64,000 nt of DNA, taken from NCBI GenBank assembly GCA_021234155.1, contig JAJEKV010000035.1, positions 11,470,407 through 11,534,406 of the forward strand, written 5' to 3'. Under the pieces are notes generated by a model that saw only the letters and a list, made by a program, of their open reading frames with translations, was not told the DNA's origin and did not search any database. Every line of letters starts with the position of its first letter. Within the stretch, counting starts at the first letter, position 1. The DNA comes from Isoetes taiwanensis (lineage: Eukaryota; Streptophyta; Lycopodiopsida; Isoetales; Isoetaceae). Shown here piece after piece: positions 9,669-60,130 of this stretch. Made by a program: the position numbers and the translations under genes.

Positions 9669-10246
9669 CTAATGTGATATACAATGAATCTGCAAGTAAG
9701 TTGTCTTTTGATTCCTTATTCCTGCAAAACATCTTAAATTCATTTGAACTGAACTCACCTCCCCTGTCAGAGCATAAGGTTCTGATTTTCCTTCCAGTTT
9801 CAGCCTCTACTTCACTCACGTATGATTTGAATACTTCAAAGGCAGAGTTCTTAGTCCTTAGTTTTTCTACTGAAGTCATCAATTAATGTCATGAAATATC
9901 TTTTACCTGATAGACTTGTGACGTTCAGTGGTCCACGTAGATCGGTGTGAACTAAATCTAGGACCCCTTTTGCCCTTTTGTGTGATCTTTTGAATGGAAG
10001 CCTGCTGTGTTTTCCAAGGATGCAGCCAGCACATATAAAATCTTCCATCTTGTTTTCTGCTGCATTGATTAACCCTTTCTTAATCAATAATTCAACTGTT
10101 TTTGAATTTACATGGCACATTCTTTCATGCCAAGTTTTAATGGTAGTGCTTCCAATGTGATTGATACTTGGAAAGTGATCTTTGTGCAGTCCAAACAAAT
10201 TTCCAACCCTTTTTCCAATAAACTTAATTTTTTCATTGAAGAACAC
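9589..10246 (-). pseudogene. copia GAG-pre-integrase and integrase core, partial
   Basis: 10246-9851 holds the zinc-binding pre-integrase region (TWHERMCHVNSKTVELLIKK, then CAGCILGKHSRLPF) and the first integrase Asp in LVHTDLRGPLNV. The second Asp region is at 9882-9589 in another frame (IRTLCSDRGGEFSSNEFK). The coding then runs into LINE sequence, so the catalytic Glu segment is missing. Integrase would insert the element cDNA; this one cannot. Confidence 0.85.
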
Positions 10247-10309
10247 TTTACATTCCAGCTTTTCAAATACAACTTTATAACCGAGGTCTACAAGGTAACA
10301 AACTGATAT

Positions 10310-10771
10310 CTAATTTCTAACTAGTCCAGGTACACAAAGTACATCTTTTAGTTGTACACTTTTTCCTTCTAAATCATAGAGCTCTAGCATTCCAATATCT
10401 TTTATTTCTTGAAGGTCTCCATTTCCTAGCTGTACATGTCCTCCCTTTCTGTCCTGACATTTTTTAAGCAACTTTGATGATACAGTCACGCTCCTTTCAG
10501 CTCCCGAATCTAGTATCATAAGATTATGGTCACTGTTAGCTTGTCCCAGAGCATGTATTTCAGAAGTAGTTACCTCAGTGTCTTCATTAAGCTCATCCTC
10601 ATTAGCTCGGGTGTCTTGTGCAAGGTTGACAGCTGGATTTCCCTTGCCAGTGCCATTGTTTCTATTTCCAAGGCCATCTCGACTATCTGCACCCCTGCCT
10701 TTGCCTCTTCCCCTAGTATTTTGTCCCATTTGGACTTGAACAATTTGTTGATATATGCTCCTTACCATCAC
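10310..10771 (-). pseudogene. copia aspartic protease
   Basis: The catalytic motif is MILDSGAERS near residues 85-94, corresponding to the LDSGAS/T of copia proteases, followed by LKDVLCVPGLVRN typical of the domain end. In active copies the residue after Ala is usually Ser or Thr; here it is Glu. It continues into integrase in a different frame. Confidence 0.8.
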
Positions 10772-11006
10772 AATTGAAGCATATGATCTCCTTTTTCAAA
10801 TTAGGGCAGTCAGCTTTAAGATGCCCATAGCTGTCCCATATATAACAAGGCCCTACTTTCCTTTTACTTGCTGCATTGTAAGATTTGTTTTGTTTGTATT
10901 TTCCAGCATATAACACCTCAATGTTTTCTTCTTCTTCCTGCCCAAGCTTGCCTTGTTCAAACTCAGTCCTCACTATTTGAATAGCATGGTCTTTGGATTT
11001 GGCCAC
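10713..11006 (-). pseudogene. copia nucleocapsid with zinc knuckles
   Basis: The segment carries one good CX2CX4HX4C knuckle (CFNCDGKEHISTNC, about 10791-10750). Upstream is a second, degenerate knuckle (GPCYIWDSYGHLKADCP) in which one Cys is lost. It overlaps the following protease frame by about 60 bp, so a frame change lies between them. Confidence 0.8.
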
Positions 11007-11009
11007 AGT

Positions 11010-11264
11010 CTACAATAGAGTTGCCAAATGAGCATTATGAGAAACAGACCTGGATATTGCTAACAATTGATATTGTTCATTAAGAATGACCCCTGCCCCT
11101 TCTAAGTCTGCAACAATTGAGTCAAATTTTTCAAAGAACTCAGTTATATTATCATTTTCACAAAGTTTCAATTTCCTCAGCTGCTTTTCCAATACATCAA
11201 TTTGTGATGATGTTTTAGCCTCATAGTTTTTAATCATGTACATCCACATTTCTCTAGGTGTCAT
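11010..11264 (-). pseudogene. copia gag, UBN2-like helical part
   Basis: This segment contains MTPREMWMYMIKNYEAKTSS and LEKQLRKLKLCENDNITEFF, the Trp-and-helix pattern of UBN2-type copia gag. It ends at a stop just before the nucleocapsid part at 11006. Confidence 0.75.
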
Positions 11265-11308
11265 ACCTCTGAGTTTCAGTTTAATAACTGCTCCAACTTT
11301 GCAACAGA

Positions 11309-11638
11309 TTATTGCTTGTGTTCCATGATCTTGAAGCTTTCCTCAGGATCAACACTTGCATCCCTTACTGCAGTAGTAGCTATTGAACTTGTTGCTGCTC
11401 TTCCAGCTCCTACCTCTGTTGTAGTGCTCTCCTCACTAGAGCTAGCACCATTTCCCCCTGCATTACACATGCCTGCACTCAATATTATACCAGAACTTGG
11501 ACTTCTTATGGCATTTTCATCTATTAGATACCATATACTTTCAAATTCCAACACTTGCCTAATGCTTTGTTTCCAGAACTGGAAACCATTCTCACCTTTA
11601 AATACTTCAATTGAGTTTAGTAGATAGATTTGCTCCAA
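11309..11638 (-). pseudogene. copia gag N-terminus
   Basis: The frame begins MEQIYLLNSIEVFKGENGFQ, where the FKGENGFQFWKQSIRQVLE segment resembles the start of copia gag proteins. A Ser/Thr/Ala-rich insert follows (GASSSEESTTTE) and the frame closes at 11309. Gag continues in another frame at 11264. The start lies about 30 bp downstream of the putative primer site, as expected. One frame change makes it a pseudogene. Confidence 0.7.
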
Positions 11639-11984
11639 ATCTAGTTGCCATCTCTAAACTTATGCTATGATACCAATGAAAGATTTAACGAGAATATTTA
11701 GCACATTTAGTAGCGCAAAAGGATCACAAATCTTACTTCACTTGTATCAAATACAAGTTCAACTATCTATAATGCTACCTGCAAATGATTACAATATTTT
11801 CAATGGTTGCATCCACTTACAGTAGCATTGCTTTAGGCCCCGAAAGCCCAATCTTCTTTTAGAACATCTTGCCGAAATCACTCTGTAATCATACACCGAT
11901 CAGTTACAATACTTCTTCATTTATCAATCAATCCACATAACCTCATAGATGATTTTGTAGCTTTTGAGCAGCTAACGGAAGATG

Positions 11985-12966
11985 TGAATACTGATACATC
12001 CATAGAGCATCATGATGATGAGTGTAATGAAACAAACCCTCAAAATTATCTAGCACAATATGTCGATGAATATCTTCTGAATCGGGCAGTGATCCTTCTC
12101 AACAAGGATCAAAATGGTCGTAGGTAAATGCTTTAGAAGTGACGCGCTATGAACTCACAGAAAGATTGGAAGAGGATAGCTAGATTCTTGTAGCAGAACA
12201 AGAGTATACACTTGTGCTTTGGCATGGATGGTTGGACCATGTTTGTGAACCACATCTGAAACAATTGCTGGATCATGCAGTGAACATAAGAATGCACTTC
12301 TTGATACTTGAGAATCTCAATGTACCTGAGAGTTGTATCATGGCGAAGCAGGCACCAACACATAATCCAAAAAACAAGGGCATTCATGCTACTATTCTTC
12401 TTGATTTATTGCATATGGATGTTGTAGGACCTATGTCTCCTACTTTTTGAGGCCAAAAATATTGTCTGCTCTTGTTTGATGATTTCTCACGAAGACTAGT
12501 CATGTTCTTGATAAAAAATACAAATGAAATTCCTAGACACTTCCATTTGTGATGGCTGCAAGCAGAACGGGAAACCCACAGCTCTTTTGAAGCAATGTAG
12601 GGGAGCATCTATATCAGGTACTTCTTGCTGAGCATGGCATTAAGCAGTTACCATTCCTTATGTGCATCACCAAAATGGTATGCTGAGAGAAAAATTTGCA
12701 CTCTCAAAGAATTGCTTGAAGCTTGTTAAAATTTGCTAGTTTGCCAGACAATTTTTGGGGTGAAGCCTTTTTGACCATTGCGTAAGTTCAAAATAATGCA
12801 CCAACTGTTGCATTTAAGGAGAAAACACTGGAAGAGGTATGGACAAGATGTAAACTGGGTCTTAAACATCCCTGCATCTTTGGATGCCCTGCATAATCCC
12901 ATATTTCAGCTTAAATCAGATCCAAATAATGTTGAACATGTTAAAAGAGTCATATTTGTGGGTTAT
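11985..12966 (+). pseudogene. Second copia fragment: degenerate integrase, plus strand
   Basis: Plus-strand remnants include HMDVVGPMSP and a following CLLLFDDFSRR-like segment (about 12410-12495), and PDNFWGEAFLTIA with later NAPT, TLEEVW and LKHPCIFGCPAY-like blocks (12744-12895). The last block ends VIFVGY (about 12950), the usual beginning of copia RT. Many stops and frame changes are present. Orientation is opposite to the neighbouring copia copy, so this is a separate insertion. Confidence 0.7.
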
Positions 12967-13149
12967 TAACTATCATTCAATTAAATTGGGATTATGTCTT
13001 AATTTTGGGACAAATTTCATATTGTATGTTTTTTATAGCATATTCAAATTCACACAAACCACCTCAAAAGTATGAAAATGTAACCTCATATTATTTACAA
13101 AATAGTCAATATTTCACAATATAGCACCATATTATAAAAACGTGATGAA

Positions 13150-15300
13150 AGAAATTTATAGTTATTCAATTTTCTTCAAGCACCCCCAATGATATCATAG
13201 CCTTCTTCCTGACATCCTGAGGTATTGTAATTCTCGCATTTCTAGCTGGAATAGTGTTTGGAGTCCATAAGTACAAAACACTTTCATAGTCTAGCCAAAG
13301 ATCAGGATCACTCGGATTTCTCCTCCATCTCTTTGTCCAACAATCTGAGTACCTTTCTTTATTCGATACGTTGGTCAACGGATGCACTGGACACCACCAT
13401 TCCACCCGCACATGGTTGAAGTTAATATTACCTCTTCTTTGCAAATATCAGAGATAGTGAACCCCAACCACACTGGATATGTATCTAAATCTGCTGGCTT
13501 TACTACCACAAATTGGTGGCATTCCAAGTCAGTGGAAGGTTCATAAGCATCCATGCCTAGAAACTTTGGCCTATTGTTCTTAGGACCAACATAGTGTTTG
13601 TCAGAAGGAGGAGGAGCATATTGCTTGCGAATGCTACTTACAATGTCATCAACATCCTCAGCACCTGCTAAGGTCTTCCACCTAGTTTTAGGCAACCACC
13701 CTTCTTTCAATGCATCTGAGGATGTGTCTATCTCCCCCAACAGGTTAATCACCTTCTTCCAGTAAGCCACCAAGGCACGGTTGGTGTCATCTGAATTGGT
13801 TTGCCAATGCTTTATATAGTCCTGGATTCCTTCCTTAGTCAATCCCAATTACTTCACTTCTTCAGTAGGTTTTAGAGCTTTTGGTTGACCTAGAGGTATC
13901 ATAGGCTTGCCATTCTCATCTCTACGCCATATTTCCTCCCCTCCTCTCCACTCATCCTCTGAAGGTCTCATCTTCCATTGGAAGATTGGAATCCCATCTC
14001 TCACCCAAAAAGTGAACTGCAGAGGCCTGGAATGACCTTCAAGATCCAATGTATAACCATCCACAAAGCTCTTCCAATCGGGCACTTCTTCTATGAGAGA
14101 AGCTATAGGGTTTGGAGTAGTGCATTCATGCAAGATTTCCATTAGCCTAGGAAAGTTGGTCACTGTTTGCTGCTTCAGTATACAACTATATTTGCCAAAT
14201 ACTGCATCCACATCCTCATGGGTATGCCCGGGCATAAGAAACCCTAAATTAACTCTTGCAAATATCCCCACAGCTGTTAAGTAGGATAGGAAAGAAAACA
14301 TCCACTGTTCTTATTTTTGGCCAACACAATTATCAAGTTGCAAGAGAAACCTTTTGGGTAGATCTTGAGGTTTAGCACGTGAAGTTGAAGCTCCAACATG
14401 TTCATTAGACCCATGCTTCCTAAACCTTGCCTTGCTGAACTTTTCAATATTGTTAGGGTTTCCATCTAACAATGCTCTATGTAGTGCCTGGCTAGCTGTA
14501 AGGTCTTGGAGGTGACCATTGTATCCATTTTCATAGTTTCTCAAACACCTCATGATACTCCCAATATGAAAATCTGGACCATCACCCTCCACAACTCCAA
14601 ACTAAAATGGCCATAGTAGGTTTGATTACGCCCATGCAAGATTGCCCCATCATTGAGATCCGTAAAGGGTATGATCTTCCACATGGCTTTGGTATGTACT
14701 TGAATTAGGAAGACAAGTCTTTTGCTTTGGTCCATCTTGTCATGTATAATACATAAATAGTTATTGGGTTCCAATGCGAATAAAGTCCTCCACATCCAAT
14801 AACATGATCTACATGATAGTTGTGTCACCATATATGGTCCTTCATATATGCTCCTTATCCTAGCCCTTTGACTAGGTTGCCGCGGTCTTATCAAGAGTCT
14901 CCTTCAACTTAGCACATAAATTGCACTTTGCAAAGTTGTTTGAAGTTGCTATGGTGACATGATTGAAATGCTTCTTCCATAGCCTACTAAAGCTAGGCTG
15001 GGATATTGGAAGAACCAATTCTCGAAGTAGGGAATTCACTTCTTCCAAAATACTCTTTTGAGTACAATGTGATGGTAACCTTTTCTCAACAACTGATCTT
15101 CCCTTTTCATCCCTTCTGTTTTTATGTGGCTTAGACTTTGCATTGAAATCAATATATTTTTCAAATATCTCCCTGGCAGCCAAGATCCTAGCTGTTGGTC
15201 TCAACAAACCATTATTTCCATGTAAAGCAATCTTGTTCCCCTCTGCCTGTTTTTTTTGCCAATTATACCATGAAGAAGTTGGAATTTGTGACGTTCCAAG
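13150..15300 (-). pseudogene. DDE-type (DUF7869-like) transposase gene, lightly damaged
   Basis: This minus-strand gene looks like the large DDE-like transposase family that UniProt labels DUF7869 (recollection). The N-terminus begins about 15300 with a helical region (SWYNWQKKQAEGNK). The first acidic motif is IIHDKMDQSK (about 14745). The second block is LQLDNCVGQK (14340) continuing into CFLSYLTAVGIFARVNLGFL, and the third is MPGHTHEDVDAVFG (14235-14195). The C-terminal accessory domain has FVVVKPADLDTYPVWLG (about 13510-13460), like the binding module at the end of related proteins. Disablements are a frameshift near 14880, one near 14580, one near 14310, one stop at 13849-13851 and one shift near 13420. 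No terminal repeats were found. Confidence 0.65.
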
Positions 15301-16875
15301 GCCACGATTAATGCGGTCCCGGGCATTATCTTTGTCTTTGCCTAAATCCGCGATGTTACCGCCACTCCGGTGGCGTGTAATGCATAGCGTGTAAGCCGGT
15401 GGGTAGCCCCTAGGGGGCAACTTGCTAGGTATGTGCATTTATTATTAATGTGCACATTTATTAAGGTGCACACCTTTCCATGTGGGCACATTTTGCCACC
15501 TAGCCATTAAAGGCAAGTGGGCCCATTCCCAATTATTCCACATGCCAAAAGGGGATAATTGGAAACCCTAGCTTACCCCCTTGTCTATTTACGAGGGGAA
15601 ACCCTAACTTGCCCAATTTTCGTTTCTAGGGTTTTAGAGCTCTGTTTTGGCTGCCCCAAGGGTCAAAACCGCCTCCTAGACTCTGTCTGAGAGAATTGCA
15701 CCATTAGTTTCCCTTGATTCGAGCATTTCAGCAGGATGGTCGAACTCAGGTCAAGAGGAGCAAGTCAAGGATCAGGTATTTGGCCAATTAAATAGTCTAA
15801 ACCACCTTCTAGTCATTGAATCAGTAGGTTTAGCCTATTAAATTGCCCATATCAGCCTTCTAGATCTTTAAACACCAGACTCTAACTAAAGAACCTAACT
15901 CTATGATATAGATTAGATTTAGTTCTTTAGTTCTTCTGTGATGTATATGGATGATGTATCTCTATGAACTCCTTGTATTGGGAAGGGGGGTAGAGACCTA
16001 AAGCTTGGTAGTAGATGCTCCTAGATTAGCCTCTCTAGCACACTATAGATTCGGCCTGTGCACAAGAACCACACCGGGTTGTGGGTGAAGGGGCGGAGGC
16101 GGCTTATAAAGAGATTAGGTGTTGACTCTTGAGCGATCCCTCCGGTGTGTAAGGCCTACAGGGATCATTGTAGACTAGGTCTAATGGCTTGTCCTTTGCG
16201 TGCGGGCAAGGCATGGGCTCGACACAGGTGGGAGTGATCGCGTTACTCTCCATTGGGTTCAAGTCGAATAAGGGCGGTGGCCCTCTAGTCACCTTGGTTG
16301 ACATGTAGACCTCTGGAGGGAGTGATCCCTACCTGCCCCATCGGGCGGGGAGATGCAACCCGGGGAATAGCCCTTTTGGCTATGCATCCCGGGAGGCTAC
16401 TGATCGTCCCAACACTTTTCACCTACTCTGCGAAGTGTGCAATTGGGAGGCGGATGGAGTGGACAACCCCTACGATGCCAGGCCAAATCCATTGCCATGA
16501 ATTCTGCGCAATGAACTCACGGAGACCCAAGCCGTCGGTCATCCCCTCGAAATGTGAGCCTTGGGTAGACCCCCTTTGTATGATCTTGTCATTGTCTACA
16601 TCACGGATGTTGATGCACCACCCTTCGAGGTGGATATGTGATTATGATATATCTTGACATATATGTTTTACGCTTCCCGCCTTCTAGGTAGGCCACGAGG
16701 GAGAGGGTAAAATGACCCCTTCACTCTTCCCACTGGGGACTCAGTACGGTCTCCGTGACATGTGGAGGGCCCCCATCGATTATTGAACCGGTATGGGGAT
16801 GAACTCTGTTTGTATACGGTGCGGGCATGCATTATCACAGTAGGGGGCGTCCGACGGGGTATCAGAGCAATGTTC
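15300..16875 (+). mobile_element. LTR-like block ending in a tRNA-Met-type primer site
   Basis: This non-coding block shares landmarks with 7249-7915. It contains GGGGAGATGCAACCCGG and the small hairpin CACCCTTCGAGGTG at 16618-16631. It ends near TTATCACA (16831-16838), and GGTATCAGAGCAATG at 16857-16871 resembles the initiator-Met tRNA primer-binding site that follows a 5' LTR. No gag follows, so it may be a solo or truncated LTR. Its 5' boundary is uncertain. Confidence 0.55.
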
Positions 16876-17068
16876 TTGGAGACCAAGAGCAAAGCACTGA
16901 CCATGCTCCCAGTAGTACTAACTTGATAGGATCCTTAAACCTCGAAAAAAAATGGAATTTTTTTTTTCTCATTTTTGTAGTTTATGCTAAGCTAGTAACA
17001 GTTAAAATGAATGAAAACATAAAAAAAAAGACTAAAAATTGGTGAGCCAACCTTCAAAAAGTAGGATG

Positions 17069-17135
17069 GTCTCACACGTCGCGCCAGGACAGATAATGAG
17101 AATCTCATTTTCGGGCTGGGCGCAACGTGTGAGAC
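17069..17135. promoter_or_regulatory. Long hairpin, promoter module 1, copy a
   Basis: The left arm starts GTCTCACACGTCGCGCC and the right arm ends GGGCGCAACGTGTGAGAC, separated by a near-palindromic AATGAG/CTCATT core. The whole 67 bp can fold back on itself and has ACGT cores near both ends. The same sequence recurs at 17265, 27684 and 27884. Confidence 0.85.
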
Positions 17136-17264
17136 ATTCAGCTTGAAACACACTAAAAAGTTATAAATCGCAGAAAAATAACTTGATAATTCTAAATTTG
17201 GGCTAAGAAGAATTGGCAGGTTATAGGCTTAGAAAGTATAAAATTTAGCAGCGGGACCCACCAT

Positions 17265-17335
17265 GTCTCACCGCGTCGTCGGCCGAGGACGAAAAAGCGA
17301 ACTTTTCATTATCGGTGCAGGCATAGCGTGTGAAC
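17265..17335. promoter_or_regulatory. Long hairpin, promoter module 1, copy b (diverged)
   Basis: This is a diverged version: GTCTCACCGCGTCGTCGG on the left and GGCATAGCGTGTGAAC on the right, with a CTTTTCATTATCGG centre like that of the copy at 27884. It lies 196 bp after copy a and 76 bp before the TATA box. Confidence 0.75.
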
Positions 17336-17410
17336 CATGCTAATTTAGGTGTTCTAGGTGTTCCGGATGACCCAAAAAGGTAGTTTGAAATTTGACCTAA
17401 AATCGACCCA

Positions 17411-17526
17411 TATAAATAGATCTAGGCCCCCCATTTCCAAAGTCCCTTCAGCTTAGAAAATCTGCTCTTTCGTTTGCCGAGGCGATCTTAAAGCGCATAG
17501 CTTCCGGATCAGCTAACTGGCCGAAT
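17411..17526 (+). promoter_or_regulatory. Core promoter and leader of the H3-like gene
   Basis: TATAAATA at 17411-17418 is followed by CCCCCCATTTC, TGCTCT and AGGCGATCTT (17480), then the ATG at 17527. The same ordered motifs with similar spacing precede the ATG at 28248 (TATA to ATG is 116 and 122 bp). This supports a transcribed leader starting about 30 bp after the TATA box. Confidence 0.75.
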
Positions 17527-18365
17527 ATGGCCCGGACAAAGGCATCTAGGGAAGCCCCACAGGCTTAATCCTCAGCGCCCATGATCCCCGCCACTCGTGA
17601 GGATACTCCAAGAACGCCTTTTCCTAAAGGCGAATCTTCATCCGTTGAGGAGAGGTACTTCGGACCGGAGCAGCGGGGCCGAGGAGGTCATAGGGGAGGA
17701 AGCGGATGTTATGCACAGATCCTTGAAGAAATGGCGAGGAGGAAAAAAGGTTGAGCAAAGAGGAACGGGAGGCGAAGGGACACCCGACCGTCCAGGAACA
17801 ATTCAAAGCTTGGGCCCGTCTGCGGGAAGTCAGGAGAGAGGCAGCGGCTTCCGCCTGAAGAAGAAGACCCTCGCATTCATCGGCAAGTATGAAGCCAAAA
17901 GCACCGCCGAGAGAGGAGGACAAAGAAATCCGGAGGACGACCCAACCACCAGTAGAAGCGAGCGAAGAGGAAGAGGGCCAAAGGCATTAAGGCGGGCAAG
18001 AGAACAGTTGTGAAGGTTGGTAAGCGAGCGGAAGGTACCGTCATCAATGAGCCATCAGGCGAGCAGACCCCGCCTTCTACCGGATTTAATTCGGACGAAG
18101 ATTACGTCCCCAACACTGAGGGGGCAAGCTCTTCAAAAACCCGTCGTGGAAGGAAGTGCCCGAGTAGGTGGCAATCGAAAGGAGGCGCCCGGCAGCGCCG
18201 GTTCCCACCATTCGGCGTGGGATAGGGTCAAAGCCCCGGCCACCACAACGGAGGGCGACGTGATAGACCCAGGTCGAGGTCTATCAAAAGAAGATCAGGG
18301 AGCACAACGCCTACATGGCGAAGTGGGAGGCATACAACGCTTATTACCAAGAGCACAGGGTAAGA
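17527..18365 (+). pseudogene. H3/CENH3-like gene, 5' part (tail region)
   Basis: The gene starts ATG at 17527 with MARTKASREAPQA, resembling the MARTK start of histone H3 and CENH3. An in-frame TAA follows at 17566. The coding then continues in alternating frames (frame of 17527 to about 17750, another to about 17985 containing LSKEEREAKGHPTVQEQFKA, back again at 17990-18222 with STGFNSDEDYVPNTEGASSS, and the last from about 18288 with KIREHNAYMAKWEAYNAYYQ). The composition is Lys/Arg/Glu-rich throughout, a very long tail for an H3-type protein (about 270 codons). Frame changes may be indels or unrecognised short introns. E1 interrupts the gene at 18365. Confidence 0.6.
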
Positions 18366-19125
18366 AACAAAGTTTAAAATGAAACGCACTTATTTGCTGG
18401 AAACGCACTTCAAAAGGAATCTTTGAAAGATTCCCTAAAATTCCCATAAAAAAGTCCATTTTAAAAGATTTTTTTTTTGTGACGTGTGACAATTTAAGTA
18501 ATTTAGGTACCATTTTTGAGGGGTTGATTGAACATAACTTTAACCCTGCAAAAATTTTAAATAGCAATTTTCATCCTCCTAAACTAGAACAAAAATAGTT
18601 ACTTTTATAAAGTGTAGCAAAAAAAAGGCAATAAAAAAAATAGCAAGGGTAGTAGAGTGACAAAGAAGTGATATATTCAAGGTTGTGAAAATTGTACAAA
18701 ATTATGAACAAAATTGTCAAAAAATATAGGATATTTTGACAGACAATCATCACACACACTTTACATTCTTTACATGTTCGAGTCATCGGACAAACTTACA
18801 TTTTGCAACAAGATCGGGATGCATCTCATCCTCACGACTCATTTATTCCACGATCACTCGAGCCTTCATCCTCGGCTTCACTCTCGGCCTTTGGATGTAC
18901 TCGAGCGATCTTCTTCCTCACTTGTCTACAAGTGAGTCTTCATCATCATCTTTTTGGCCACCTTTTTGGCTTGTTTGTCTAATCCACATCTTTGACCTTA
19001 TTAAAGTTTGAGTGACCATACGTAACTTATTAGCGGCGGTCGAACAAAGTCATATGCAAGAACCTTTACTTGATTAGATCTATGGCCGGTGCTTGCTTTG
19101 GACTTAGCTCTCTTTCCCCTCTGTT

Positions 19126-21310
19126 TTACCATCTCAAAGTATAACTCCCACTTTGAAAGCATTGGCGGCCGATCGTTCTCATCCGATGCACTTTTAATTG
19201 AGTGGGAATTCCATCCTCTCTTGTTACCTCGATTACTTTAGCTAGCGGGAATGGCCTCAGTTCATCATTATCGGTTGGGACAGCTATGAGCATTCCTTTA
19301 CGAATCTCCGGTGAACCAGGATACTCGAGCAACTTGTTGTCTTTGTCGTCTAGGGCGGTGTACATGACTCTGTCATCTTCATCTGAGCTAGCCAATATCT
19401 CTACATGTTCCTCTTGATTCTCAACGCACGGGGAGGGTTTGCCTAGATGGCGGTTGAATGTAATTCTGTCTTCGACCTTGTAATGAAGCTTGCAACATGT
19501 CACGTTGCCGAAAAAATTGAGGCCACCATAAAGCATCTGCCTCCCCAAAGTGGTTAGAAGCGGGGATTTGAATACTTGTCTCAATACAATCCAATGATTT
19601 ATTTGAGTCAAATGCTCTTCCCTCCTTTTTTTACTCTTTGTGATTTCTTTCAAGCTTTTTAGAGGCATTTGCTCTCTGCAGAGCATGGAACTAGTATTGG
19701 GGATGTTGAATGAATTGAATACACTGCTGCTTTACTTTGCAAGGATGTGGCATATTTCTTTCCTTGTAAGATGGCCTTGCCATCTACAAGTGAAAATTAC
19801 AATCGATCTTTGAAATGTAATGTTTCTCAATGGCTCAATAGCCACGGTGACCTAGTTGATCTCTCAGAAAAATCCATTCCTTGAAATCATAAGTTTCTTC
19901 CAATAACTTCGATGTGCGGGCCGAGGATTGTAGGAATCTTGGATGACCTCAATCATGGCTGGCGGGCTTAGAGCTTTTTTCGAGCAAGGCGTTTAGAGAA
20001 CCTCTTGAACATCGATCAATTTGGTGGGTGTGTATGACCAACAAGCGGAAACCAATCTTCACCTTCTTGAAGATTTGTTTCTCTACTAACATAACCGATA
20101 AAGCAAACAACGCTGATTCTTATTTTCCCTTGTCGTGTTATCTAGTCGAAGATCTGAGAACCGCGGTATATGTTCTAGATTGGAAAGAAGCTTATTCAAT
20201 ATTGTGATAGTGAGATTTGGATCAGCATGAATGTTTGGATAATTCAAAATGCCTTGCAAGATAGTTTTCCATTAAATACCATAGCACCAACAACATGCGG
20301 ATGTATGAAATCTTCTTCGGCATCCTTAGGCACATTGACAAAATGTGGTAGGGTGGTCTTCTTCGGTCCATTCCATCAATAACAAGCGATATGTAGTTGA
20401 GTGGTTGTTCGATGCTTTCTTCCTATGTTTTGTCAATTTTCTCCTTTCCAAAGATTGTTGTTCTCGTGCTTGTTCGGTTTCTCCTTCAATGCATCCGAAA
20501 GGAAAACATGTTTAGGAAAGAACCTACTTTTAAGTAGAACTAGGCAAGAACACGTCACGGAAGCTTACTTTTAGTGTGAAGTGTCCTTGCATTTTGTCTC
20601 GAGCTTTTAATTCAGGCATGTAGCACAAAGACATCCTATGCTTTCTAGGAATGGCCTTGAGAAAACTCTTTTTCGAGCACGGTAAAGTAAGAGTAGCGGA
20701 CAAAAGCGTTCTCCGGCCTCAACACACATCTCCTTATAATTATCGTTAGACTTCTTGTTTTAGGTGAAATTGTCACTCAAGTGGTACATAGGGCTGTTAG
20801 GGAGTTTCTCACAAGACTCCTTAAAGAAACCTTCCATCCGGAAACACATTGAAGAGCATGAATTCTGGTTATGCCTCACGAATGGCGGTAGTCATTGATG
20901 CACGGATTCTTGTCAAGCCTTTTCTTGGCGGTCAAATTAAGTCTGCTGCCTAAAGCATGAATCAATTTGAAGGCCCGTTTGGCCGGCGGTGTGGCCACCA
21001 GTACATGTAAAGTAAACTTCTCACCATCATCGGCCTAATATTGAAGGCTAAGTAGCCCCTTTGGTCTAGCGAGTCATTGAGCTGTAACTATCACGAAGCA
21101 ACCTCAATTCCTTTAGTCAATCTTAAGCAAACAACGTTGAGAACAACGATTAACTTTGTATGTGTTGCCCCATGGGTGAGCCTAGTCCATGAGTTTCTTT
21201 CTTCTAACGGTTGTACATGCTTTGTGTTGTGTAAGTTAAAGCTTAAGATTTTTACTTGCGGGGGGCTTTGAATTGAACATGGAGTCTTGTGGCTTTGGTA
21301 GGTCCTCGTC
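19126..21310 (-). pseudogene. E1 transposase (DUF7869-like DDE family), decayed
   Basis: Read across frames on the minus strand, this region gives the landmarks of the family also seen at 13.1-15.3 kb: SLVIDGMDRRRPP (about 20395-20350, first acidic motif), LVEKQIFKKVKIGF followed by VGHTH and QID (about 20095-20010, third block), and at the C-terminus an open stretch 19686-19126 with PGSPEIRKGMLIAV and ELRPFPLAKVIEVT, the accessory domain. A sequence near 20730-20770 aligns roughly with the middle part. There are many stops and frameshifts, so it cannot make protein. It is presumed to have mobilised E1 because it lies between matching ends, oriented towards the left end. Confidence 0.6.
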
Positions 21311-21319
21311 ACGAGACAT

Positions 21320-21900
21320 CAACATGAGGTGTTTCTTAGTCATGCGAGAGATCAACATGAGGTGTACTTGTAGATCTTTGAGAGGTTTGATGTGGGCAAG
21401 GCACGGGGGGAGGTGCTTTCCCTCTCTGGGAAAAAGTAATTGAGGCTGGTGGCGTAGTTGACCAGCTCTGAAGTGTCGTAGAACACGGGGAGTTGCGTGT
21501 CGTTGACTGCTCCCACTTGTTGTAGTACCATTTAGCGAAATGGATGGAGTTGGTGTGATTTGCCTCCGGAGGGGGAGCCTACGGTGGACTATGGGCTGCG
21601 TACTAAAATGAAGTGGAGGAGGTAGTCACGACCTCTCTAGCGAGGTGGGGTGAAACGCATTGGTGGGGGCGGCGGCGTTCGGGGAGGCGAGGGGTGTGGT
21701 GGAGTAAATTGAACTGGTGGTGGAAGCGAGGTGGTCTTCTTTGGAGTAAACTCAGCGAGCCGGGTGTTGGAATGTCGGATGTAGAATATTAAGTGGCTAC
21801 TTCACGGTGTGCTGTTGAGGAGGTGAAAAAGCCATTGCGGGGAGGAAGCTACAACGAGCGAGGAGTTGGAGGCTCTGCGGTTCTTTTCTCTCGAGCCATA
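21320..21900. other. E1 intergenic segment, GC-rich, no gene seen
   Basis: Tryptophan/Gly-rich in several frames but without a convincing reading frame. It lies between the decayed transposase and the first palindrome cluster and probably holds the 5' region of the transposase gene. Confidence 0.3.
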
Positions 21901-22036
21901 CGGTATAAATTTATCTGAGTTGGTATAAATTTATCTGAGGAAAAAAACTTAAAGCGGCGGTATAAATTTATCTGAGGAGATGGTATAAATTTATCTGAGG
22001 AGGAAAACAACATAGAACAGGCGGTATAAATTTATC
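21901..22036. repeat. E1 palindrome cluster A (5 units)
   Basis: Five copies of [C/T]GGTATAAATTTAT followed by CTGAG or CACG. The left half matches the full palindrome, while the right half has TCTGAG in place of TACCG, so these are half-degenerate versions. Confidence 0.95.
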
Positions 22037-22300
22037 ACGAAAACTCCACGGACACTTGTATTGAAAACTTTATGGGCTATATGAAGGCGCCGCGGAGGTA
22101 CTTAAGCGGTGCCGGCCACCCTATTTTCTATATATCACGGCCTTTCGGTCGAAGGGCTCATGGTCGCGGCTTATATACCCCCTTATTTGCTCTGGGAGCG
22201 TCTATCACGTGGGTCTATATTGTCATGGCCACGTAAGTCTACTACCCCCTCTTGTTCTAGTTTCTCTTTTGTTTTAATCTGCTAGAGTGTGTAAAGCCCG

Positions 22301-22732
22301 CGGTATAAATTTATACCGATATGGTTCTGGATCGGTATAAATTTATACACGCTTCGAGCATGGCGGTATAAATTTATACCGTTCGAACACGATCGGTATA
22401 AATTTATCTGCCGATATAGTTACTGGATCGGTATAAATTTATCTGCCAGTATGTTTCGGCGGTATAAATTTATCTGGATTCGAACACGATCGGTATAAAT
22501 TTATACCGCTTCGAGCACCTCTTGGTATAAATTTATACCGGCAGATTGCCGGAACGGTATAAATTTATACGGCTCAGCACCTAGCGGTATAAATTTATAC
22601 CGGTGATGTTCTGAAGCGGTATAAATTTATACCGCTTCGAGCACTGCGGTATAAATTTATACCGATCGTGTTCTGGTTGCGGATAAATTTATACCGCTTC
22701 GTTAGAGCGGTATAAATTTATACCGATCGAAA
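22301..22732. repeat. E1 palindrome cluster B (14 units, ~31-bp period)
   Basis: Fourteen units with starts near 22301, 22333, 22364, 22394, 22429, 22460, 22490, 22524, 22555, 22585, 22617, 22647, 22680 and 22708. The consensus CGGTATAAATTTATACCG is a perfect 18-bp palindrome; three units end TCTG instead. Mean spacing is about 31 bp, close to three helical turns. The 11-17 bp spacers alternate between related types (CTTCGAGCAC-like and GAACACGAT/GTGTTCTGGAT-like). It sits just upstream of the ParB/methyltransferase-like gene. Confidence 0.95.
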
Positions 22733-23337
22733 CCATTTTGGAATCTTGGTGTCTAGTGCTTAAAGAAGTGTCGCAAAACCTTAATATTTTTATTAATATT
22801 CTTGCGTTTTTAAGCTTAAATAACACAAATAAAGTGATAATTTAGTGTAGATTTTATGCTCTTTTAAGCCTCTATTTTCTTGTTTTATGTTACAAAAGGT
22901 CGAAAAAGGTTACGTTTCTTGCATAAAATGGCCTTCTTTGCGCTTTTTCCAGCCCCAAGATCAGGTTTGTAAACAAGGGCCGATCATCAAAGGCGCACCA
23001 ATAGAGCCACGGACATCTGGCCCGAAGACCCGGGCGTGGTGCGTCCCGGGGGTGCAAGAGAGCAAACCCACTGGAGGCGTACCTTTACTTGTGTCATCAA
23101 TCGGGGAAGGGCAAGTACAAGACCCGACGATTATTACCTGCCCGCCCGAAATTGTCAACCTTATTGCTCTGAGAGGTCGATGATGAAATCTTAATGAAGT
23201 GCATGCATGACAAGGGGGAAGTCTTCTACGTTCTTGAAAGTAAAATGCTTCGAATAAGCATGTGCAAACCCAAAGATGTGCATGAGTACGTGGCTGACAA
23301 TTACAAGAGTGGCCATGTAAGTATTGTTTAGTGTCTT

Positions 23338-23358
23338 TACGTATAAATTTATACCGTC
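23338..23358. repeat. Single E1 palindrome
   Basis: One copy, CGTATAAATTTATACCG, lies in a probable intron of the decayed methyltransferase gene. Confidence 0.9.
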
Positions 23359-24393
23359 ATCTTCCTAACTTAACCCTGTATTACAGGATATAGTGGACAT
23401 TTTGATGTCGGTTGTGCTTTCTTGAAGAAACAAAAGTTGGTCAAAGGTCCACGTGGTACCCCTCCTAACGAAGAGAGTTTGAAGAGAAAGGAAGAGGAAG
23501 TAGAAGACCAGTGGTAACAAAGGGAAAGGGTAGAAAGCATTCCCTGGTAGTAGATACACAGGCTCCTACAAAAAAGAAATCTAGAGGCACAAAGTCTTTG
23601 ACTATAGAGGAGTCAACAGAAGCTCTTCAGAAGGCTCCTGGAGCAGATATTGTTGTGAAGCCTGCAGATAAATCAAGTGCTATTCTCAAGCGGGTGAATG
23701 ACACTAAACTGCTAAAGCAAACTATTTCTTTGACATTGAGCACCATTAAGAGGCCACCTAAAAATGAAGATGGGGTCAGAGTGCTACAGGTCCGGTCGAG
23801 TATCGGCACATGTGGCTATCTTGAAACAAAGAATGAGAAGAAATCCTCATGCCCATGTGTAAGCCACTAGTTGTTATGGTGGGCCGAGTCGGTGCAACCA
23901 ACTAAAAGATTACAAGAAGGTGACTTGAAGATTACACATACTACGTTCTTGGAGGCACACATAGTTACAAGGCAAGGAAAAGAACTAGCAAAAGAGGAAA
24001 GCCGTAGCGAAGTGTGGAAGAGCGTTGAAACACATATATACGTTGGTGTAACGGATGAAGAAGCAAAAGTCATTGCCGTGAGTCATAATCTCGACAATGA
24101 CTTGGATTAAAATGAGTTTAATAGACAAGATCCGTTTCATGCAACCGTGAGTGCGTTGGAATTTAAACAAATGTATGGAGAGGATTTTAAAAAGCAAAAG
24201 AACAAGCTGCGGGAGCTTGAGAAGCCTGGCGTGTGAGTCTTTGCCTCCGGCTATGACTATGATAAGAAGCCCATTATGGCGGTAAAACAATGTCGATAAC
24301 TACTTTCAGGTGGCATTGAGAGATGGTCAAGTAAGTAAATGCTCTTCTTTCTATGTTTTGTAGTATGTTTAAGCGTGGTTACAAGTGCCTTAT

Positions 24394-24721
24394 GCGGTAT
24401 AAATTTATCTGCGTGGCCAGCGATTATAAATTTATACGCGACTAGTCGCGGTATAAATTTATCACGCGAACTTACGGTATAAATTTATCTGCGCGACTAG
24501 TCACGGTATAAATTTATCACGGGTAGCGGTATAAATTTATCCATCTAATCATATATAAATTTATACCGTTGCCTAGTCGTGTATAAATTTATCACGTGGT
24601 AGGACACGGTATAAATTTATCACCGAATATAAATTTATCACCGTGCGGTATATAAATTTATCTGCTGACTAGGCACGCGGTATAAATTTATACCACTAGG
24701 GACGGTATAAATTTATCGTGA
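24394..24721. repeat. E1 palindrome cluster C (13 units)
   Basis: Thirteen units of the TATAAATTTAT core, spaced 19-31 bp (starts from 24395 to 24703). Right halves vary: CTG, CACG, CACC, ACCG and CGTG. Spacers repeatedly contain GACTAGTCGCG or CTAGTC/GACTAGG, themselves partly palindromic. The cluster separates coding segments of the ParB/methyltransferase-like gene. Confidence 0.95.
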
Positions 24722-25792
24722 CTACACACCATCGCGTGTTAGAAAGTAGGCGTACAACATATTCTCTTCACGCTAAGCAACACTAAACTAATGGCGTTTG
24801 TCCATTTCACGGTGTGGGATCTTCAAGAAAGAATTTTTTGTATGTTCAAAGATGGTGAGCTTAAAAGAGCAAGCCAGCTCCTCAAAAAACCAAAAAGGGT
24901 GGAGAATTAAAACGAGAAAAATATGAGCATTGTACCACGGGCCTTGATTCTGAGGGATTAAAAAGCAAAGAAATTTTTGTTAAGCCTTTTGGAAAAAGTC
25001 GTGGCCAAGGAATTTACATTAGGCGAAATGGCCAAGGAAGCTAAGGCGTAAGCCACATTTGCAATGCCGGTGTTTCTTCTACATTTTCTGGTCTTACAAC
25101 ATGTTTCTCTTTGCGGTCGAGAAAGACATTGTCACCGCCGGGCCGAGTTAATGAAGCGGCTAAACCTAGAGGACGGGAGGGAGTGCAAGCTTCTCTACCC
25201 AAGTTGTACCAGCGATAGTATCATTAGAAACCTTGTTGTTAACTTTAGTGGTGGGTAAGTTTTGCTAAAAATATGTTACGTGTTTGTGCCTTTTTCTCAC
25301 AATATTCTTCTGAGAACAAGAAAAAGGGGCTCCCATTTGGATTTTTAAACCTGGTTCGTAGGGCCAAGGAAGAGAGGCGAGACTTAAGGCAATCGAGCAG
25401 GGAAAGGAGGTCGCCACTAGCGGCTTTGACACTTCTTATGAAAGATTTACAACGTTTGGTCGAATTTTGCATGTCTGAGAGTTGTTGAGGGTGACCGCAC
25501 GAGGCTGGGGACACTTTTGGAGAAGCGAGAACTTCACATTATGCATTGCGGATATTCCCTATGGTTTCAAAATTAAGGACGGTAGCTTTTGGCGAGGAGG
25601 CTTTCCGCGCGTGCAAGTCCACTCTTTTTGGAAGGCTGAAGGAAGTCACCTTATCTGCTAGCGGAGGGTCATCATTTTCCATTCGGACCTACAAACAATG
25701 TCGGTGCTTAAACCTATGGGGTATGCATAATCTGCCGGCTTTGAAAACGCATTTGGTAAGCAACATTTAACGCTTTTCTTTTTAGTAACTCC

Positions 25793-25932
25793 ACGGTATA
25801 AATTTATACCACAACCGCCCTAAGGTTTAAATTTATATATAGCAAGGCAATGTCTATATAAATTTATACGACTGCGGCCCAGCGGTATAAATTTATCTGC
25901 TTAAAGGCAACCCCCAGTATAAATTTATCCGC
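25793..25932. repeat. E1 palindrome cluster D (5 units)
   Basis: Five degenerate copies (near 25795, 25832, 25855, 25882, 25917). It lies between the motif IV segment and the motif I segment of the decayed methyltransferase. Confidence 0.9.
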
Positions 25933-26420
25933 CACACCTCTTGAGCTAACTTATTTTCCTTGTTTTATTTTACTAATATTTCATTGTTGTCTTTGTTTGG
26001 CGGGCTTAAAACAAACGTTAAGGGTCATGGTGGTGGTCCGCACTTAGTAAGTTGTTTGAGCATTTTCACATAGGGTTTTACAAATAGCGACGCCAAAAAA
26101 CCATGGTTCACTTTAATGTGAGAATGAAAAGACTCCTCCACGCAATGCGTTTCAGTTTCGGCGGTTTTGCAAAAATTAAGAGACCCACGGCGACAAGGCG
26201 TGGGTGTCCCATTATCGAAACCCCGGCGACTTATTAATAATTTGATCTGATGGTTTTCGCCACAGGGACCGGATCTTAGGCGCATTTTCTCGCTCGAGCA
26301 CCACCAGTTTTATGCCCTTAAGCGAGCAATGTTGTCTCCGTCGACATAGACCCGGACAAAATAAGTTTCATCGGGACCGGGATAAGCTCTTGTGAATCCT
26401 TTCACGATGAAAACGAGGAA

Positions 26421-27060
26421 TTGGGAGCAAAAAATGGTCTTTGGCGATGTAAAGGCACATATCTGAGAAATCCAGCCTCCACTTACGGGAAGAAGAAATG
26501 AGGAGGTGGAGTTCGTCGATCACGGAGCCCTGTGGTGCACGAGCCGAAGAAACACTGCACTGTACCATTGGAATCGAAGGGGCGTCTACGCTATTATAAC
26601 CTCGCAAAGAGACCGATCCTAAGGGGAGAGAGAGTCCTGTGGACTGGGAAGAGCCACCTCCCGTATAAATTTATACAGACAGCATTTTAAACTATCTTTC
26701 ATTGTAATCTATGTGCTATGAATTTCAATATATTTTGATGAAGATTTCTCAACTGAAAACTTTGTCTCTTCAACAATGCTTAATTAGAACAATTCTTTTT
26801 TTGATTCATGATTTCAGACTCTTTCTCTTTTCTATGTTTGATTTTCTTAGTACTTATATTAAGCTTGCAAAAACACAAAACTATATTTCCTTCTATTTTC
26901 AACAACAAATACTTAATGAGTTTTTAAATGTAATGTCTCTCTCCTCAAAACAAGCTTTTTTTTTTTTTGCCCTTCTTAAAAAATGAAAAGGCTTCAAAAA
27001 TGTTGCTTTTTTTGGGGTATTTCGAATGCTATTTGCTCAACAATCTATTTTGCTCCCTAT
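26421..27060. other. E1 right-hand region, last palindrome and AT-rich DNA
   Basis: The end of the decayed coding region may reach about 26650 (EFVDHGALWCTS-like text). One further palindrome, CCGTATAAATTTATACAG, is at 26660-26677. The remainder is AT-rich and leads into the right terminal repeat. Confidence 0.5.
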
Positions 27061-27153
27061 TTTGTCCATTTTTTTCAAGTTTCCAATTTTTATAAAGGAA
27101 TCTTTCAAACGCACTTCTTAAATAAGTGCGTTTCATTTTAAACCTTGTTAAGA

Positions 27154-27537: not shown

Positions 27538-27683
27538 ACTTCTTGTAAATAATGGAAATTTTTGTTAATATAAAGAAATTTTGAGTAAATAATGTGTTTA
27601 TTAATCTTGCTTAATTAGGTTAAGATATCGATTTCTGGCTTTTATTTTGGTCAAATTGGACATTTTGAGCAAAATTGAGACGA

Positions 27684-27752
27684 TATCTCACACGTCGCGC
27701 CAGGACAGAAAATGAATTTTTCATTTTCGGGCTGGGCGCAACGTGTGAGACC
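27684..27752. promoter_or_regulatory. Long hairpin, promoter module 2, copy a
   Basis: Starts TCTCACACGTCGCGCC and ends GGGCGCAACGTGTGAGAC. The centre GAAAATGAATTTTTCATTTTC is itself a near-perfect inverted repeat. It is nearly identical to the copy at 17069. Confidence 0.9.
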
Positions 27753-27883
27753 ATGCCCAAATATGCCCAAAACAGCTCCAAATTGACCAAATAAGGGGTC
27801 AATTCTGCCTAACTCGACGAGTCCAGTAAGATTAGACCCTTAGATCACCCAAATTGATCGAGCTTAGCCCATTTAGAGCCCAT

Positions 27884-27950
27884 GTCTCACACGTCGCGCC
27901 AGGGCAGAAAATGAATTTTTTATTATCGGTCTGGGCGCAACGTGTGAGAC
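27884..27950. promoter_or_regulatory. Long hairpin, promoter module 2, copy b
   Basis: Same hairpin with GTCTCACACGTCGCGCC and GGGCGCAACGTGTGAGAC arms. It begins 200 bp after copy a; the pair upstream of the H3-like gene is 196 bp apart. Confidence 0.9.
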
Positions 27951-28125
27951 CTCGCAGCTTTTTCTTCACCATGATCCAGTTATTGCAATAGGTCCTTTAG
28001 TTGTTAGTAGCCTACTCAAACCCTAAAAGTAGTCTTCAAATTCTCAATTACACCTCTTAACAGGTCAGAATCGCCCAATTCCAGTAAATTCTAGGTTATC
28101 CAAAAACTAGGGTTTTCCCTTTTTC

Positions 28126-34884: not shown

Positions 34885-34912
34885 TCAAATTGAGGCATTT
34901 GTTATTGAAAAG

Positions 34913-35433
34913 AAGTGAAAGAAAAAATCAGTGGATAGGCTGGTAAATAGTAGCAGAGATATGAGCAGTGAGAGAGAGCTGTAAGAATGTGGTATATGTG
35001 AAATTGGCGTAGCCGGTAGCAAATCGGAAAGAACCAGTTCCACCGGCAATAGCCAGTTCACTAACGCCACCAGTTCAATTGTATCTCTGCCCAGCATAAT
35101 AAGCTGGCCTTTCAGACCCTTATGTTCATACAAAACTGTGAAATAGTAAGTTGAACTTGTAGTCGCCACATCTGTCACTGCCACGATCCCCTGTGCTCTT
35201 CCCAATATTTTAGAAGTCTGATTGTTGGGGCCATCTGTGATCTTATCATCAAACACAAAAATTGTGCCAAACTGAGCCTTGCTCACATCGTTGTTTGGCC
35301 CTGCTACAATCTCATTCGAGGTATTGGGCGCTCCACCCATGAAATAAAATTCAAGGTGTGTAAACTTGGCCTGGCATCCTAATGCTAACATAGCTAGGAA
35401 AACGAAACAGATGCCATATTTGAAGCTCGCCAT
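34913..35433 (-). pseudogene. Dirigent protein gene A, one-base deletion
   Basis: Dirigent proteins are extracellular beta-barrels that steer the stereochemistry of phenoxy-radical coupling (lignans, related phenolics). This copy begins MASFKYGICFVFLAMLALGC, a signal peptide cleaved about residue 22, followed by the barrel with EFYFMGGAPNTSNE, FGTIFVFDDKIT and RAQGIVAVTD. Compared with gene C it has lost one base near 35075 (CAGTTCAATT against CAGTTCCAATT), so after GRDTI the frame shifts and the predicted protein ends with an unrelated hydrophobic tail. Read in the other frame, the missing end (FRFATGYANFTYTTF, then QPIH and a stop near 34913) is intact, so the mutation is recent or an assembly error. 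A TATA box (CTATATAAG, minus strand) is at 35533-35525. Confidence 0.85.
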
Positions 35434-36790
35434 TTTGCTTCAGAGATTCGCTCAAAGGAATAGTTGAGGTGATGAATAGCAAGGTCTTAGGTGATTTGAT
35501 GAGAAATACAAAGGAGCTTGGGCCCTTATATAGAGTTTATATTTGCAGTAGTTTGAATTCTTCAAACTCTGCATTAAGTTATTAGCTCATGTTGCGTATC
35601 GATTTGAAATTGGCTGTTTCATCCATCCGCGTGAGTCCTGTGCTCTTTTGTCCGAAGTTTTGAATTTGTTCTGGTGGACTTTGTTGGCGTAAGATTTTTG
35701 ACCAGGATCATATATTTGGTACTTAAGAAGACGACAAGTAAGTATGTGGGACATGCTTAATCTTTAGTCTTCTGTTCAGAAACAACCTTTTCATACCCTT
35801 TGCATAGAAAGAGAAATTATTTCATGTCAGAGTGATCAACTTGTCTTCGTCCTCTTTTGACGGTCCCAAATTTGTCCTAGATTTGTCAACTTGTTGGGTA
35901 AGAACTTCCACCAAGATATATTTACCAGAAGTATGTGGGACATATTTTCCAGTTTATTCTTACAAGGGACAAAAGGATCAAGATCAAAGCACGTTGTTTT
36001 GCTGTTGGGGAAGAACTTTGAAATAAATATTTCAAGGAATTTCTAACCTTTGCATAAAAATCAGTTTCTAAGTAGTTCATTTCTGAATTCGGTGTGCATG
36101 CATGCCCAAGTCCAAGAGACCATCTGGCCCATCTGAGTGCATTTACAGAATCAGTGGTTCATTCCCAGAATCAATGGTTCAATTTGTTCTGCTACCTCTC
36201 TCATTCTCTTACTCGATATACTAATCATGTTTTTACCTGTCTGGCTATCGAATTGATTGACCTACAGATGAAAATCAAGTTACTGTATCTAGTCCTCTCA
36301 AGATCTGTCACTAATTATCTCATGTCATAAACAAAACATAGGACCTTATTCCTTACTAGGACATATCGACCTTAATCATAGTACTTTCTATTGTCTGAGA
36401 TGTTGTCCAGGTTGTAACAAGCAGCTGATCTTAGCTGTACTATATTCTTTATGCTTGTAAGATGGTTGTAAGCTTTAATTGCCTTTTTGCTTTAGATTCA
36501 ACATCACACTATAATAATAAAAATGGGTAGCTCTAACACCAAGGATAATGCTATCCTTGCATAGTGCTCAAGGTTCGGCAGTTTCTATTATTAATGTACC
36601 CCTATGGTGAACAAATCTGCTGGTCCAGAAGCATCTCTGCCCTGCTCTGCAATACTTGGGTAAATTGCAGGTGTGATGCAATGAAGAGACTTGTATTATA
36701 AAGTTTATAACATAAACATTCCTAAACAGAACACACACAGATTCTTCAAGTAAAACAGGTATAATTAGTTATAGTTTTCCAAAATCAAGC
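35434..36790. other. Intergenic DNA between dirigent genes A and B
   Basis: Holds the gene A promoter (TATA at about 35529) and AT-rich DNA with nothing else recognised. Confidence 0.5.
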
Positions 36791-39378: not shown

Positions 39379-39465
39379 TTTGCTTCAGAAGTTCAGAGAC
39401 AAGGAATATTAACTTGATGAGGAGCAACTCGGGGATTTGATGAGAAATTTGGGTGCTTATATACA

Positions 39466-60091: not shown

Positions 60092-60130
60092 ATGAAGGTT
60101 TCCCTTGTTTCTCTCTTTATCCATATTTCT

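Follow-up and report, generated by a model that had tools for sequence, protein, structure and literature searches.

What purpose could 39 copies of one short palindrome serve inside a single plant transposon? The question is raised by a 64,000-nucleotide stretch of the Isoetes taiwanensis genome (assembly GCA_021234155.1, contig JAJEKV010000035.1, positions 11,470,407 to 11,534,406; hereafter the window), in which the copies are gathered within the element E1 (18366-27149). E1 is bounded by 30-bp inverted repeats and a 4-bp target-site duplication, AAGA, and carries two divergent genes, one on the minus strand with the transposase-like domain DUF7869 and one on the plus strand, here called the right-hand gene, that encodes a ParB-like domain and an N6/N4 DNA methyltransferase. 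The reading frames of E1's own genes are broken, and E1 is a decayed, dead copy of a high-copy land-plant DNA transposon. Here we report that the palindrome is constrained, lies outside coding DNA, is private to one family of these transposons and has a different palindrome as its counterpart in a sister family, for which reasons it is best read as an address for an element-encoded protein. That the palindromes act in cis as recognition sites for a family-specific protein of the element, most likely the ParB-methyltransferase, has in our judgement about an even chance of being correct, on the strength of the sequence comparisons described below.

The palindrome and its place in the element

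The window holds 38 ATAAATTTAT cores, every one within 21904-26674 and inside E1, and one decayed copy at about 25824-25842 brings the number to 39. These counts bear out the first-pass annotation of the window, made by a model from the letters alone, which had reported about 39 copies confined to E1 in clusters of 5, 14, 13 and 5 plus two singles (now placed at 23339 and 26661). Its description of the copies as one 18-bp palindrome needs correction: only 7 of the 39 copies match the 18-mer exactly, and the conserved unit is GTATAAATTTATAC. Matches to the 18-mer at up to 3 mismatches nonetheless number 23, against 0.01 expected from 100 shuffles, and the perfect 12-bp palindrome TATAAATTTATA is contained in 17 copies. 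Pooling of 447 sites, drawn from E1 and from 19 related loci, placed the information content in 14 bp (GTATAAATTTATAC); the CGG/CCG flanks are weaker and little is left past ±9, although only the flanks are an unbiased measure here, the sites having been chosen by at most 3 mismatches to GTATAAATTTATAC. TTTATA, with at most one mismatch, comes after 466 of the 478 GGTATAAA half-sites. E1 itself is dominated by an asymmetric form that ends in ATC (e.g. GGTATAAATTTATC; 20 of 38 sites, with a single site in the reverse form). This variant is present in all four arrays, all asymmetric sites but one share their orientation, and in most of the 13 loci compared with E1 the variant is scarce, a pattern that looks like the concerted spread of a variant site. 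The palindromic form predominates in the loci L005-L017 introduced below, among which L014 (8 forward and 2 reverse of 25) comes closest to E1.

Within 2 mismatches the 18-mer is found at 13,785 places in the 1.66-Gb genome, compared with 58 for its reversed control. Thirteen loci (L005-L017) were picked from the listed motif places on low-numbered contigs, one listed single site on contig C23 being omitted, and all 13 carry DNA of the E1 family (family 1), L008 by a 65-bp end only; L007 and L008 are incomplete. A search with the ParB-like exon returned 3,061 genome candidates, 150 of which were scored, and the six loci picked by the family-1 form of this exon (L021-L026) all carry the palindrome, in 14-30 cores each. 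Full copies in which both ends are in view, namely E1, L011 and L022, measure about 8.5-8.8 kb. Matching 4-bp duplications flank seven of the eight elements with both ends in view (AAGA in E1, AAAT in L005, ATAG in L010, ACCC in L011, AATC in L013, TTCC in L017 and ATTG in L022), the exception being L012, whose flanks are unmatched (CCCG vs CAGG). More open relatives of the DUF7869 gene occur in L011, L022 and L025, and the Pfam match to DUF7869 reaches 1.9e-52.

The sites avoid the parts of the element that encode protein. In 11 E1-family copies, none of 299 sites falls within the 54,040 bp that match proteins and all 299 lie in the remaining 35,920 bp, where coding DNA was defined by tblastn, a procedure that small exons may escape. 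In E1 the sites begin 3.5 kb inside the left end and stop 0.47 kb short of the right one, and the four arrays and two single sites occupy the 5' side of the transposase-like gene, the gap between the genes, and the introns and 3' end of the right-hand gene (Table 1). The single site of intron 1 is kept in all seven copies from which that intron could be extracted, out of 13 tried, and L023 also keeps it although the 5' part of its intron is replaced.

Neutral growth of a tandem repeat, in which spacers and motifs would multiply jointly without function, might be suspected from the copy number of the motif, which differs from element to element, and from a dimeric repeat of about 62 bp in array 2. 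Under such growth, however, motif and spacers should have diverged together. Across 11 copies of the intron-4 array, motif columns are 94.0% identical (3153/3354) and spacer columns 76.7% (2848/3711); because CpG decay could hit the spacers, A/T columns were also compared alone, and gave 95.1% vs 79.6%. In a mask-shift control of the same array, only the shift that maps the mask onto itself equals the motif value, the next best, 1 bp off, reaching 94.4%. Spacer sequences are also unlike one another between the arrays of one element, intron-1 singles are kept, no sites occur in protein-matching DNA, and two different sequences stand at homologous positions in the two families described below. 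Taken with these observations, neutral growth appears very improbable.

The regular spacing of about 31 bp that the first-pass annotation had noted, and had read as three helical turns, is real in the main cluster and limited to it: 309 spacings from E1-family loci have peaks at 20-21, 28-32 and 41-42 bp. A general rule of helical phase is unsupported, as spacings vary between arrays.

A sister family with another palindrome

In L006, an E1-family copy that is cut off there adjoins a second, diverged element whose promoter gap has GTGTATTCCGGAATACAC. The corresponding motif 2, GTATTCCGGAATAC, is found at 7,618 genome places within 2 mismatches, compared with 12 for its reverse. Three loci picked by motif 2 (L027-L029) have the architecture of E1, with DUF7869, ParB-like and methyltransferase sequences and arrays in the gap and introns; motif 2 occurs in them 19, 16 and 7 times, and motif 1, the E1 palindrome, is absent at up to 2 mismatches. 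For sampling independent of either motif, a divergent ParB-like protein (P0003) served as query, 131 of 2,707 candidates were scored, and three loci outside the E1 family were taken. All three belong to family 2: motif 2 is present 15, 15 and 10 times and motif 1 is missing. A third family with a different palindrome, sought in this way through divergent ParB proteins, was not found among them. Motif 2 was in turn absent at up to 2 mismatches from all 18 E1-family loci (L006 set apart), including the six loci picked by the family-1 ParB-like exon.

Both palindromes have GTAT....ATAC arms equally far from the dyad, around a centre of six bases that is AAATTT in the first and TCCGGA in the second; the spacing in the sister family is 42 bp in 16 of 25 cases. 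Most DUF7869 matches between the families show 51-72% identity, with lower values in frame-broken pieces. The ParB-like exon is 52-53% identical in three open copies and 29-52% in broken ones, and the methyltransferase exons mostly 39-56%, with 30-68% in pieces of the broken L029, while exon 1 is only 16-23% identical in three matches. In both families the ParB-methyltransferase gene lies on the strand opposite the transposase. The type of array and the ParB-methyltransferase clade do co-vary, a relation between array and ParB-like gene that the first-pass annotation had proposed to look for. A private palindrome in each family, set in the same layout, speaks strongly for targets that co-evolved with a family-specific protein.

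The window itself contains family-2 palindromes TATTCCGGAATA at 59045, 59087 and 62992, and 62945-63290 matches the first 100 residues of a family-2 open reading frame (ORF), L028:2723-3529, as read-through of an array and the exon that follows. To judge from these matches, the signals at 59045-63290 are a remnant of the sister family.

The second palindrome bears directly on who might read the first. A platform for a host factor, whether enhancer, insulator or sites for the TATA-binding protein (TBP), could drive both genes of E1, whose array 2 occupies the promoter gap between them and whose palindrome has TATAAA in its core. Yet family 2 has the TATA-less GTATTCCGGAATAC in the same gap and in introns, one and the same host factor would need a changed site between sister families of one genome, and the array is kept in derivatives that have no genes (passive retention, discussed below, could also explain this). 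We consider a host-factor platform improbable. Its TATA/TBP form was set aside, the sister palindrome combining the same layout with no TATA box; this argues strongly against the recruitment of TBP by the TATAAA core that the first-pass annotation had entertained.

The transposase is a more serious competitor for the palindromes, which it might bind for transposition assembly or gene regulation, as in the subterminal repeats of Ac and En/Spm. It stays a rival because the transposase, too, differs between the families, so that the change of motif could have followed the DUF7869 gene, and derivatives without genes, which would need the transposase alone, retain the array. On the other hand, the sites are internal, between the genes and in introns of the other gene, rather than subterminal. 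Moreover, a third gene with DUF7869, diverged from those of families 1 and 2 (28-40% identical), lies in the window at 13166-15438 (minus strand), and no ParB-methyltransferase match and no palindrome array accompany it within 9000-18360, a single and weak negative. On balance we hold the transposase to be an unlikely but not negligible reader of the sites.

The right-hand gene as candidate reader

In relatives of E1 the right-hand gene opens with a variable exon, followed by the ParB-like one and by two that encode the methyltransferase, one with IADIPYG and one with the S-adenosylmethionine (SAM) motif DAFSGSGTT. The SAM-motif exons match PF01555 above the curated cut-off at 2.4e-13 (L025) and 1e-17 (L028), over the SAM-motif part of the profile only; a match of the SAM-motif exon to the NCBIfam CcrM model, at 3.1e-9, is far below that model's cut-off. 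The first-pass annotation had ascribed a ParB-like protein to E1, and had not mentioned its fusion to a DNA methyltransferase. The family does have the gene, and relatives have open exons, although E1's own copy is broken and the homology to ParB appears weak. With a profile of the ParB-like domain, eight proteins were recovered at E 3e-15 or better, one of them from the fern Adiantum; the joined ParB-methyltransferase query found no relative in the protein database at E<=1e-3 (one protein, with PF01555, came at 0.068), and none of 48 pattern matches in a scan of IMG/VR was confirmed. In family 2, phrog_723 matches two of three proteins weakly (0.023 and 0.043). A long poly-glutamate run lies N-ward of the ParB-like domain in L022 (5269-6426, plus strand).

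The gene is under purifying selection. Six copies of the ParB-like exon (mean dS 0.70) give a ratio of nonsynonymous to synonymous divergence (dN/dS) of 0.04; the methyltransferase exons give 0.09 (5 copies) and 0.13 (4 copies), and one family-2 pair 0.02, values that are biased down because the copies were chosen for open frames.

Three considerations make the ParB-methyltransferase the first candidate for the reader of the palindromes: its domain pair, a weak ParB-like and a clear methyltransferase domain, would suit a protein that binds DNA and marks it; selection on its gene is strong; and the same gene arrangement occurs in a Sola1 transposon of Ectocarpus, where the passage describing it suggests that the protein may modify its own element (PMC12477816). 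We suggest that the protein would be loaded in dimeric form onto the palindromes, both those of the promoter gap and those of the introns, and would then either mark the DNA of the element at or near the sites, with N6-methyladenine (6mA) or N4-methylcytosine (4mC), or nucleate a protein coat. Such a mark or coat might keep the element, together with its array-bearing derivatives, readable and mobile against host silencing.

These derivatives are five elements of 2.2 kb (L005, L010, L012, L013 and L017) that retain both ends and 7-9 cores. Their longest frame is 85-121 residues, and matches to transposase, ParB-like domain and methyltransferase, all sought in the five, were not found. An array present where no genes remain to regulate fits a function in cis. 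Arrays without the ParB-like gene, which the first-pass annotation would have taken as telling against a link between the two, thus do exist; they do not exclude ParB, because the transposase has been lost as well and the proteins would be needed in trans.

Several observations weigh against the ParB-methyltransferase as reader. Because the transposase also differs between the families, tracking of the clade does not single out the ParB-methyltransferase. Three PHROG ParB families match the ParB-like domain weakly, in 4, 2 and 1 of the 10 domain-family members (best 0.0011, 0.0037 and 0.011), and searches of Pfam, NCBIfam and PDB sequences for ParB gave no significant match; the best Pfam match is to the unrelated IgA0_D2 (7e-4, below cut-off), the best PDB sequence match is to a nucleoporin (0.02), and the structure model of the exon is unusable (predicted local distance difference test score, pLDDT, 39.6). 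The IADIPYG exon has no family match above cut-off. Motif IV of DNA methyltransferases is usually [DNS]PP[YFW], and it is D[IL]PYG in both families (L025:2288-2836 and L028:2723-3529, both minus strand), a departure because of which methyltransferase activity is not assured. In the five derivatives the excess of motif over spacer identity is small (96.0% vs 90.8%; A/T columns 96.7% vs 93.2%), L007, which aligned at only 57-58%, having been left out of this comparison. Finally, a remnant of exon 1, 40-58% identical, persists in two of the five, L017 (42 residues) and L005 (19-26 residues; the untrimmed query matched L005 across its array too, read through in frame), so that these elements may have kept a continuous piece that reaches from the promoter gap to within exon 1, and the array passively with it.

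A true parS-like system, in which the ParB-like protein would spread from its sites and serve segregation or clustering, for instance by holding the excised element in the nucleus, goes back to a parS-like link that the first-pass annotation had raised as speculative. Palindromes, many sites and the weak ParB profile matches of relatives speak for it. The E1 site CGGTATAAATTTATACCG is, however, unlike parS when compared by eye with the consensus, the element is integrated, and the Pfam matches of the right-hand gene include no ParA or helix-turn-helix (HTH) family above cut-off. With a different sequence, no partition context and weak homology by profile, the parS identity is not supported, and a segregation role seems to us the least probable of the explanations considered.

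The palindromes do behave as a binding-site array of the element, as far as can be told from sequence, and the ParB-methyltransferase stays our first candidate to bind them. A wider proposal is that this land-plant transposon superfamily encodes its own sequence-specific DNA methyltransferase, which would write 6mA or 4mC, marks other than 5mC, on the private palindromes of each family as a self-label against host silencing, protein and palindrome being re-coded together while derivatives hitch-hike on the mark. We offer this tentatively, as possible though on the doubtful side. If true, it would provide plants with a sequence-specific means of anti-silencing or self-marking independent of VANC, whose orthogonal pairs of protein and site might be put to use in epigenome editing.

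Features of the window and known systems

Table 1. Ends, genes and palindrome arrays of E1, with positions in the window
Feature	Position	Strand	Evidence or remark
Left terminal inverted repeat	18366..18395	+	Begins AACAAAGTTTAAAATGAAACGCAC; preceded by target-site duplication AAGA (18362-18365); 97% complementary to right arm
Decayed DUF7869 (transposase-like) gene	19004..21601	-	DUF7869 matches 20089-20271 (6e-7) and 19952-20119 (1.4e-5)
Array 1, 5 motif copies	21901..22039	+	5' side of transposase-like gene
Array 2, 14 motif copies, ~31-bp spacing	22301..22725	+	Gap between the two divergent genes
Exon 1, right-hand gene	22846..23328	+	42.6% identical to L023 exon 1
Single motif copy, intron 1	23339..23356	+	Motif match
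ParB-like exon, decayed	23517..24330	+	50.6% identical to L025 exon 2, match continuing into intron; ParB profile matches of relatives
Array 3, 13 motif copies	24395..24720	+	Intron after ParB-like exon (GTAAGT ~24332)
Methyltransferase exon with motif IV region (IADIPYG)	25254..25748	+	Comparison with relatives
Array 4, 4 motif copies and one decayed (~25824-25842)	25794..25931	+	Intron 4
Methyltransferase exon with SAM motif (DAFSGSGTT in relatives)	25984..26450	+	Relatives match PF01555 N6_N4_Mtase
Single motif copy	26661..26678	+	3' end of right-hand gene, 0.47 kb from right end
Right terminal inverted repeat	27120..27149	-	Followed by target-site duplication AAGA (27150-27153)

Other features were recorded in the window and the related loci. 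An imperfect hairpin, GTCTCACACGTCGCGCCAGG...CAACGTGTGAGAC, recurs on both sides of E1 (17069-17135, 27677-27752 and 27876-27951) and perhaps belongs to an element into which E1 inserted. L012 has six copies of a further palindrome, AAGGAATATTCCTT, at 7916-8205, three neighbouring pairs of which are 24 bp apart, and these could be another array; the same locus has a fragment at 3073-3501 that resembles the third DUF7869 gene. Two dirigent-like genes (PF03018) lie at 34888-35439 and 38875-39384 (minus strand) of the window; dirigent proteins are a land-plant family, and the two genes point to a land plant as host.

Among known systems, Ac and En/Spm have subterminal arrays of transposase-binding repeats, and E1 resembles them in its many short transposon-specific sites, while differing in that these are internal and intronic. 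Bacterial ParB-parS shares with E1 the clustered palindromic sites and a weak resemblance in the ParB domain; the sequence of the site, the fusion to a methyltransferase and the setting in a eukaryotic transposon set E1 apart. VANDALs are Mutator-like (MULE) elements, and neither a MULE transposase nor DUF1985 was present among the Pfam matches of 93 ORFs of E1 or among those of the relatives scanned; on this search E1 is not assigned to the group.

The targets of the VANC proteins of Arabidopsis VANDALs are nevertheless close in design. In the passages available (PMC5735166), they are short motifs specific to one family, set in high-density arrays in intronic, intergenic and terminal non-coding DNA; related families differ in their motifs, turnover proceeds via tandem repeats, and variants differ at one end. 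Family-specific arrays of motifs in non-coding DNA are found in the E1 family too. As described there, VANC motifs have 8-9 bases in one orientation and VANC has DUF1985, whereas the E1-family motifs are palindromes of 14-18 bp and the candidate protein is a DNA methyltransferase.

In the literature searched by titles and the starts of abstracts, in which subscription journals are thinly covered, we found no description of ParB-methyltransferase transposons with palindrome arrays, and the word DUF7869 turned up no paper. A close counterpart is Sola1-1_Ec32 of the brown alga Ectocarpus, in which, according to the passage on it, the transposase gene is accompanied on the other strand by one whose protein combines a ParB-like domain with an N4C/N6A DNA methyltransferase domain; its authors propose that proteins of this kind may act on the transposon that encodes them, by binding and modifying it (PMC12477816). 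Transposon-borne ParB-methyltransferases and the idea of self-modification have thus already been noticed in algae, and the arrays are a candidate for the missing half, with which the idea becomes directly testable through two palindromes and two proteins. E1 is likened to the algal element by this gene arrangement and by the 4-bp target duplications, which are reported for Sola (PMC10741241, in the part consulted) and occur in the E1 family as well. The two differ in that Sola1-1_Ec32 is a 21.5-kb element for which the passage describes no target array, whereas the land-plant E1 is of a family of about 8.5-8.8 kb that carries such an array and has a sister family with another palindrome.

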